The notes beneath the pieces were generated by a model that saw only the letters and a list, made by a program, of their open reading frames with translations, made no database searches and had not been told where the DNA came from. DNA of 64,000 nt. It comes from Thermoanaerobaculia bacterium (lineage in GTDB: Bacteria; Acidobacteriota; Thermoanaerobaculia; Multivoradales; JAGPDF01). The translations under genes and the position numbers were made by a program. Shown piece after piece: positions 12,765 to 62,878 of this stretch (its first letter is position 1; each line of letters opens with the position of its first letter). The stretch is taken from NCBI GenBank assembly GCA_018057705.1, contig JAGPDF010000021.1, forward strand, positions 1-64,000, given 5' to 3'.

Positions 12765-15821
<3,057 letters not shown>

Positions 15822-15875: not shown

Positions 15876-17393
15876 CTACTCGCGCTCGCCTTCCGGGGAC
15901 TGCTCGGTGGCTGCATCCTGGGCTTCGTCTTCGACGACCTTGGCGCGGTCCTCGGACTCCTTGAAGGCACGCGACAGCGCCGCCATGAAGTCCTGGTCGT
16001 TCATCGAGGACGACGACTCCGCCGCCATCGGGCGCCCGGCTCCGAAAGGCTCGGCGGTCTCCGCGACCTGGGCCTTCTCTGCCTGCTCCTTGGCCCAGTT
16101 CAGGATCGAAACCGCGGTCTTCGGTCCGATGCCCTCCACCTCCTGCAGCATCTCCGGGGTGGCATCCACCAGCGACTGGACGGTGGTGAAGCCGGCGCCC
16201 TCCAGCAGGCCTGCCGTCCGCGGTCCGATACCCGGCACCGTGGTGAGGTCCAACGGGGCGTCGAGGTCGGGCGCGGCCGGCGTCTCGCCGAAGGCGTTCT
16301 GAAGCATGCGGGCGAGGGCTCCGGCGACCTCGTCCTTGACGTCGGATTCGCTCTTGATGTCGATGCGGCAGCCGATCAGCTCGGCGGCGAGGCGCACGTT
16401 CTGGCCGCGCTTGCCGATGGCGAGCGAGAGCTGTTCGTCCTCGACGATGACGTCGAGGTGCGGCAGCGCGCCGACGTGATGCACCGAGACGCGAGTGATC
16501 TTGGCGGGCGCGAGCGCGCTCTGGGCGAAGGTGACCAGGTCGTCGCTGTACTCGATGATGTCGATCTTCTCGCCGCGCAGCTCGCGGATGATCGACTGCA
16601 CGCGGGAACCTTTCATGCCGACGCAGGCGCCGACCGGATCGACGTCCCGTTCGCGGCTGTAGACCGCGACCTTGGCGCGCTCGCCGGGAGCGCGCACGGC
16701 GGCCTTGATCATGACGGTGCCGTCGTAGATTTCGGGGACTTCCATCTCGAACAGCTTCACCAGGAGCCGCGGATCGGTGCGCGACAGGATGATCTGTGGT
16801 CCCTTCGGCTGCTTGTGGACCTCGACGATGACGCCGCGGATGCGCTCGCCCTGGCTGTAGCGCTCGTGGCGCGCCTGCTCGGAGCGCGGCACCACGGCCT
16901 CCGTACGGCCGAGGTCGACGATGATGTCGCCGCGCTCGAAGCGCTTGACGGTGCCGTTGACCACCTCGCCGGTGCGGTCGATGTATTCGTTGTAGACCTT
17001 TTCGCGCTCGGCTTCCCGCACCCGCTGATAGAGGACCTGCTTGGCGGATTGCGCGGCGATGCGACCGAGACCCTCGGTGGAGAGGGGGGTGAGAATCTCG
17101 TCTCCGGCCTGGGCGCCGGGCTTGTGCTCCTGGGCCTCATCCACCGTCCACTCGGCCGTCGCGTCCTCGACCACTTCGACGACCTTCTTCACCGTCCAGG
17201 CGTCGAACTTGCCGGTCTCCGGGTTCCAAGTGGCGCGAACGGGCTCCTTGATCCGGTGCTGCTTCTTGGCTGCCGAGGCCATCGCGTCTTCGAGCGCCTG
17301 GACCCAGCGCTCGTAGTCGATTTCCTTCTCGCGCGCGACCTGGCGCAGCACGTCTCCAAGATTGACTTCCGGGGTTGCCTGTGTCTGAGCCAT
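15876..17393 (-). CDS. nusA: Transcription elongation/termination factor NusA
   Basis: NusA binds RNA polymerase and nascent RNA and modulates pausing, termination and antitermination. The N-terminal polymerase-binding domain is followed by S1 ([21 protein letters not shown]), KH1 ([26 protein letters not shown]) and KH2 ([25 protein letters not shown]). The C-terminus carries a helix-hairpin-helix repeat ([17 protein letters not shown] and [13 protein letters not shown]) and an acidic tail. The length is 505 aa. It lies between rimP and infB, the standard order; a YlxR gene, often present between nusA and infB, is absent from the 54-base spacer. Confidence 0.97.
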
Positions 17394-17405: not shown

Positions 17406-17870
17406 CTACTCCTCGATCACCAGCTTCGCGAGCTGGATGTCCTGCAATCTGAGCCGGATATCCGGCTTGCTTTCGATCTCGACCAACTCCACTTCGCCTG
17501 CCGTTTCGTCGAACCCGGCGAGCCGACCCACGATCGTGGCACGCTTACCCGTGGCGGGATCCACGAAACGGACACGTGCCCGTCGCCCCACGAAGCGCGC
17601 GAAGTCGCGCGGCCCGTAGAGCTCGCGATCCAGCCCGGGGGAGCTCACCTCGAGCGTGTACCTGCCGGGCCCGAAATTGCGCACGTCGAGCAACGCCGAG
17701 CTCAGCTTCGAGACCGTCTCGCAATCCTCGAGACGAACCCCTTCCTCGCGGTCGAGAATGAGGCGCAGAGTGCCGGCCTGGAACTCGACCTGCAGAAGCT
17801 CGCAGCCCTGAGCTGCAGCGATCTCGGCCAACTCTGCGCCGAGCTCGGGGTCGATCCCTTTTCCGGCCAT
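17406..17870 (-). CDS. rimP: Ribosome maturation factor RimP
   Basis: RimP is needed for 30S assembly. The protein shows the family pattern LLQVEFQ...LRLILDRE, LEDCETVSKLSSALLD and YTLEVSSPGLDRELYGPRDFARFVG. I use ATG 17870; an in-frame TTG three codons earlier (17879) is also possible. It is the first gene of the minus-strand operon and sits about 25 bases downstream of a terminator-like hairpin. Confidence 0.94.
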   Translation of the reverse strand: MAGKGIDPELGAELAEIAAAQGCELLQVEFQAGTLRLILDREEGVRLEDCETVSKLSSALLDVRNFGPGRYTLEVSSPGLDRELYGPRDFARFVGRRARVRFVDPATGKRATIVGRLAGFDETAGEVELVEIESKPDIRLRLQDIQLAKLVIEE

Positions 17871-17894
17871 CCCGTCCAATGCCTGCCGTACAAC

Positions 17895-17920
17895 AAAAAA
17901 GGTGGGCTAATCGGCCCACC
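17895..17920 (-). terminator. Terminator-type hairpin in the rimP leader (candidate attenuator)
   Basis: Read on the minus strand, GGTGGGC and GCCCACC form a 7-bp stem around a 6-base loop (17920-17901), followed at once by six T residues (17900-17895). No minus-strand gene lies upstream. The structure sits between the operon promoter (17951-17979) and rimP, which is the arrangement of a transcription attenuator. Confidence 0.75.
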
Positions 17921-17950
17921 TCACAACCGTTAGGCAAGCTGTCGAGGGGC

Positions 17951-17979
17951 ATGATAGCGCGGAGCTCGCGGGATGGCAA
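17951..17979 (-). promoter_or_regulatory. Sigma-70-type promoter of the rimP-nusA-infB operon
   Basis: On the minus strand TTGCCA (17979-17974) and TATCAT (17956-17951) are separated by exactly 17 bases, a good -35/-10 pair. Transcription would start near 17944, giving a leader of roughly 75 bases before rimP. Confidence 0.65.
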
Positions 17980-19804: not shown

Positions 19805-19841
19805 GGGCCGGCTCGATCCTGAGCCGGCCCCGTTTTCGTTT
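19805..19841 (+). terminator. Intrinsic terminator after the HtrA gene
   Basis: A perfect 10-bp stem (GGGCCGGCTC / GAGCCGGCCC, 19805-19830, loop GATCCT) is followed by a T-rich run CGTTTTCGTTT. It lies between the HtrA stop and the next gene, which starts only 15 bases later. Confidence 0.85.
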
Positions 19842-62791: not shown

Positions 62792-62878
62792 TGGTGCGAA
62801 AGGGGGGACTCGAACCCCCACGGCCTTACGACCACAAGCTCCTGAGGCTTGCGCGTCTACCAATTCCGCCACTTTCGC
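62792..62878 (-). tRNA. tRNA-Leu (CAG)
   Basis: The 87-nt tRNA reads on the minus strand from GCGAAAG (62878) to its complement CTTTCGC, with discriminator A and an encoded 3' CCA (62794-62792). The anticodon stem CAAGC/GCTTG encloses loop CTCAGGA, giving anticodon CAG, which reads CUG. The long variable arm fits a class II Leu tRNA, and GGTTCGAGTCC is the T-arm. Leu is also supported by the GTGGCGGAATTGGTAGACGC D-arm region. Confidence 0.96.

Follow-up and report, generated by a model that had tools for sequence, protein, structure and literature searches.

The 64-kb window (the whole stretch of DNA that was analysed, 64,000 nucleotides at 68% GC) carries rimP, nusA and infB on the minus strand, preceded by a promoter and a terminator-like hairpin. 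The features are as follows.

12765-15821, minus strand: infB, encoding IF-2 (Pfam-type domain assignment)
15876-17393, minus strand: nusA, encoding NusA, the proposed regulator (domains NusA_N, S1, KH and, towards the C-terminus, HHH_5)
17406-17870, minus strand: rimP (Pfam RimP_N, 1.4e-17; DUF150_C, 2.6e-9)
17895-17920, minus strand: rimP-leader intrinsic terminator, GGTGGGC-CGATTA-GCCCACC-TTTTTT, then GTTG (stem scan, folding, conservation)
17921-17943, minus strand: 5' leader GACAGCTTGCCTAACGGTTGTGA, with a start site at about 17943 predicted from the -10 hexamer
17951-17956, minus strand: -10 hexamer TATCAT, spacer 17 nt (promoter scan against shuffles)
17974-17979, minus strand: -35 hexamer TTGCCA (identical in the congener G001 over ACGTAACTTGCCATCCC)
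18193 (ATG), plus strand: start of a DegP-like protease gene (Pfam Trypsin_2/PDZ)

The start codon of rimP is most likely the ATG at 17870, with a TTG at 17879 as the alternative. The nusA gene begins 12 nt past rimP on the same strand, which places it inside the operon that the leader would control. The window belongs to Acidobacteriota, class Thermoanaerobaculia: the encoded NusA matches contigs named Thermoanaerobaculia at 74-78% identity. Its helix-hairpin-helix region (HHH_5) near the C-terminus is followed by an acidic tail. A search of a plasmid collection gave a distant Sinorhizobium nusA as its sole match. There is no tRNA gene upstream of rimP in the 64-kb window that would correspond to metY of E. 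coli, and the only tRNA gene in the window lies at 62792-62878. On the plus strand at 19805-19830, approximately 50 nt past the DegP-like gene, a hairpin GGGCCGGCTCGATCCTGAGCCGGCCC with a T-rich tail CGTTTTCGTT is probably a 3' terminator whose T tract is imperfect.

The original prediction described a short leader with a 7-bp GC stem and six T residues ahead of rimP, and this anatomy is present on the minus strand at 17920-17895. The arms GGTGGGC (17920-17914) and GCCCACC (17907-17901) form seven Watson-Crick pairs, six of them GC, around the loop CGATTA, and the T6 tract occupies 17900-17895; the stem can be extended to nine pairs through A17921-T17900 and G17922-T17899. Both strands of the window were scanned for perfect stems that have 7 or more base pairs, five or more of them GC, and run into a tract of five or more T residues; this terminator was the sole match, and none was found in 60 dinucleotide shuffles. 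The leader RNA is predicted to fold into a separate upstream hairpin and the terminator, at -21.4 kcal/mol compared with -12.1 +/- 2.8 kcal/mol in shuffles (z = -3.4). With ATG 17870 as the most likely start of rimP, the U tract ends approximately 25 nt before the start codon. It had also been claimed that there is no upstream minus-strand gene, and this holds: the neighbour is the plus-strand DegP-like protease gene, and the terminator therefore has no upstream operon to serve.

The promoter of the original prediction, TTGCCA and TATCAT separated by 17 nt, is found at 17979-17951 on the minus strand. Within 20 kb no other promoter-like match occurs, though shuffles lead to an expectation of 0.9 there (0.2 in 4 kb), and a second such site was absent from the interval between the terminator and rimP. 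The distance from the predicted start site to the stem would be approximately 23 nt, giving a leader of about 20-25 nt. Comparison with the congener G001 reveals that the -35 hexamer, the -10 hexamer and the leader from GACAG onward are identical, whereas the spacer, the discriminator and the upstream DNA have diverged. Relatives possess a TTG(A/C)-type -35 and a TATAAT-type -10 at a similar distance, and within the window's order many genomes have a -10 that ends 28-42 nt ahead of the GTGGGC core. Upstream sequence was sufficient at 98 loci. At 53 of these a sigma-70-like site scoring at least 9 of 12 lies upstream of the hairpin (3.6% of shuffled segments), and at 18 of the 53 the site scores at least 10 of 12 (0.3% of shuffled segments). 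In the predicted first transcribed bases (17921-17943, minus strand), CAGCTTGCC(T/C) recurs in loci L011, L012, L015, L017, L022, L024 and L027.

Conservation in related genomes had been put forward as a check on the attenuator, and it is found in most of the relatives surveyed. Starting from the nusA loci of relatives and reading the sequence upstream of rimP, we obtained 123 non-redundant Acidobacteriota and Deltaproteobacteria rimP loci, and a GTGGG[C/T]...GCCC[A/G]C hairpin with a T tract is present in 107 of them; the motif also occurs in three Deltaproteobacteria/Desulfobacterota loci (L072, L076 and L109). All six core pairs are kept in each of the 107 motif-bearing loci, a count that is biased towards pairing because the loci were chosen with a pattern already requiring the core. 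Within these loci GGG/CCC is without variation, the remaining core pairs vary compatibly (T-A/C-G/T-G and C-G/T-G/T-A), and pair -1, which flanks the core on the outside, is A-T, G-T or G-C in 105. A looser hairpin finder, independent of the core pattern, detected pairing kept with changed sequence in L096 (GTCGGC/GCCGGC), L036 (GCGGCC/GGCCGC), L108, L009 and L013. The loop sequence varies freely, even between congeners (CGATTA in the window and CGAGCA in G001). Many Terriglobia leaders (L036-L110, for example L047 and L052) have (C)TGTTGTGT...GGCGAAGCACACCA immediately ahead of GTGGGC, and TGTTGTGT together with GCACACCA could form a stem adjoining the terminator.

No such terminator was found within the up to 700 nt searched at six of the 123 loci (L112, L113, L114, L116, L128 and L086), and it is therefore dispensable. 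Four of the six (L112, L113, L114 and L116) belong to one family of the window's order, f7, and the sequences suggest an apparent lineage-specific loss in f7 and in L128. The genomes of the four f7 loci and of L128 are approximately 7-11 Mb in size.

The motif is almost exclusively tied to rimP-nusA. A strict pattern, GTGGGCN3-10GCCCRCNTTTT, was applied to 119 Acidobacteriota genomes and gave 57 matches in 50 of them. For 47 of these matches, one in each of 47 genomes, nusA follows on the same strand at a distance of 491-890 nt, four more are the opposite-strand reading of a rimP-nusA-linked hairpin, and the single match in the window's own genome is the 17895-17920 element. With 47 of 57 matches at rimP-nusA and one in its own genome, the motif therefore comes near to being a signature for the 5' end of rimP. 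Such specificity for rimP leaders was reported for other bacteria in 2010 (PMC2965389).

We think it likely that this element is a rimP-leader, a conserved attenuator that acts as a NusA-sensitive brake on rimP-nusA-infB. The attenuator reading, which was at the center of the original prediction, is well supported by the conservation of position, sequence and promoter among relatives; the case for NusA feedback on this particular leader is one of analogy. RNA polymerase would start at approximately 17943, transcribe a leader of about 20-25 nt and meet the conserved intrinsic terminator ahead of the rimP ribosome-binding site. Part of the polymerases would stop there, giving an RNA of approximately 45-50 nt, and the rest would continue into rimP-nusA-infB. 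NusA made from the operon would slow the polymerase and favour hairpin-driven release, and because of these two effects it would set read-through inversely, with less read-through when NusA is plentiful and more when it is scarce. Neither a riboswitch nor an obligatory antiterminator would be needed. From work on B. subtilis, NusA dependence is said usually to mark weaker terminators. The window terminator looks strong, which counts against NusA dependence, and simple NusA-stimulated termination leaves the conservation of the stem sequence beyond pairing unexplained.

That GGG/CCC never varies in the core suggests recognition of the sequence itself, and this would suit an attenuator of the same operon in which read-through is set mainly by NusG, RimP, another stem-binding protein or the growth-dependent elongation rate. 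RimP was also considered as the regulator in the 2010 survey (PMC2965389), and in B. subtilis NusG is described as a factor for intrinsic termination (PMC8060035). However, NusA was named the best candidate in the same survey, and a 2025 review reports that the B. subtilis leader is under NusA control (PMC12288461); we regard control mainly by another factor as rather unlikely. It is highly improbable that the promoter and terminator constitute a stand-alone small RNA with incidental effects on rimP: the predicted terminated RNA of about 45-50 nt would be compatible with it, and in enterobacteria a list of attenuator-derived small RNAs that associate with ProQ includes the rimP leader (PMC5391140), but the motif is bound to rimP in 47 genomes and the stretch from the terminator to rimP showed no further promoter-like site. 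Nothing specific favours an ordinary 3' terminator that ends an upstream or an antisense transcript, or a hairpin formed by chance, and the probability of either is next to nil: the upstream neighbour is oriented the opposite way, and chance is excluded by the conservation of the hairpin and its link to rimP.

A true antiterminator would have the RNA 5' end CAGCTTGCCT pairing with the terminator 5' arm AGGTGGGC to keep the terminator open. The complementarity between GCTTGCCT and AGGTGGGC extends over 8 of 8 positions, three of them G-U, and CAGCTTGCC, which is able to pair with the 5' arm, recurs across several families of the window's order; the leader is also the same in the congener G001, in which the discriminator has diverged. 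Among loci of the window's order, thinned to 20, the leader-arm duplex is at -10.9 kcal/mol compared with -9.6 kcal/mol in dinucleotide shuffles, and the observed complementarity was reached by 2 of 200 shuffles of the leader and 0 of 200 of the arm, although these shuffles ignore relatedness. Against this, arms of the same genome are paired no better than those of other genomes (0.28 of permutations were as good, 0.085 in a larger set), the duplex test detected no complementarity excess in other classes, and the predicted fold is a separate upstream hairpin and the terminator. With the 3' arm removed, the paired fraction of the 5' arm in partition-function pairing is not clearly higher than in shuffles for the window's order (0.67 compared with 0.63), and it is 0.50 compared with 0.55 in other classes. 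A phylum-wide antiterminator is not supported, as partition-function pairing of the 5' arm showed no excess over shuffles, and the own-versus-cross duplex test for covarying alternative pairing was not significant. The original prediction suggested looking for conserved alternative pairing in relatives: there is a leader-arm excess over shuffles in the window's order, with own pairs no better than cross pairs and nothing in other classes, and alternative pairing in this order is a weak lead and not a finding. That the window's order gained an antiterminator, with CAGCTTGCCT pairing the 5' arm to make a two-state switch, is improbable, and a true antiterminator as the explanation of the element is distinctly so.

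The NusA-sensitive attenuator has a published counterpart, and the novelty implied at the outset has to be reduced. Naville and Gautheret (2010; PMC2965389) described a 'rimP-leader' with a GGGc...gCCC stem and proposed NusA feedback, and that paper ranks it as the most ubiquitous transcription attenuator of their survey; the element and the feedback proposal are therefore already known. A description specific to Acidobacteriota was not found in the literature searched; the supplements of the 2010 survey may list such cases. The present analysis adds a survey across the phylum, the conservation of the promoter, the loss of the terminator in some lineages and, for the window's own order, a hint of alternative pairing that is weak and unproven. 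With genome-scale counts the survey carries the rimP-leader into Acidobacteriota, and it suggests that very distant bacteria have a brake on NusA supply in common. The question of why the stem sequence, beyond its pairing, stays conserved is sharpened, and the lineages without the terminator are natural comparisons.

The element shares with the 2010 rimP-leader its position 5' of rimP-nusA-infB, the GGGc...gCCC stem with its U stretch, and a terminator-gene distance (about 25 nt here) inside the reported range of 4-130 nt. The 2010 element was without an evident antiterminator; here one is not supported across the phylum, and the window's order shows a weak excess of leader-arm complementarity without covariation. 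The Acidobacteriota element differs in its longer common core, GTGGGC/GCCCAC, and in a recognisable promoter approximately 30 nt upstream of that core. Rfam gave no relevant match: its family RF01770, named for the same gene context (rimP), has a 102-position model that did not match anything in the window's genome even at E 10, which we attribute to a narrower model and not to a different kind of element. In E. coli, terminators t1 and t2 lie upstream of rimP (PMC6511841), the one nearest rimP in MG1655 being TGGGCTTTAGGCCC followed by T7, and the metY-rimP-nusA-infB leader additionally contains the tRNA gene metY, RNase III sites and a further terminator upstream. The B. subtilis rimP(ylxS)-nusA operon likewise has a leader terminator ahead of it, where NusA-stimulated termination autoregulates NusA according to a 2025 review citing Mondal 2016 (PMC12288461); the B. 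subtilis leader is about 180 nt long (PMC2965389), compared with about 20-25 nt ahead of the stem here. The leader of S. agalactiae gbs0413-gbs0418 is very short, as here, with termination 31 nt past the start site and NusA feedback proposed from the terminated leader RNA (PMC4448216); it is a Firmicutes system with RNA evidence. These rimP-leader precedents in other phyla support the attenuator and NusA reading by homology.
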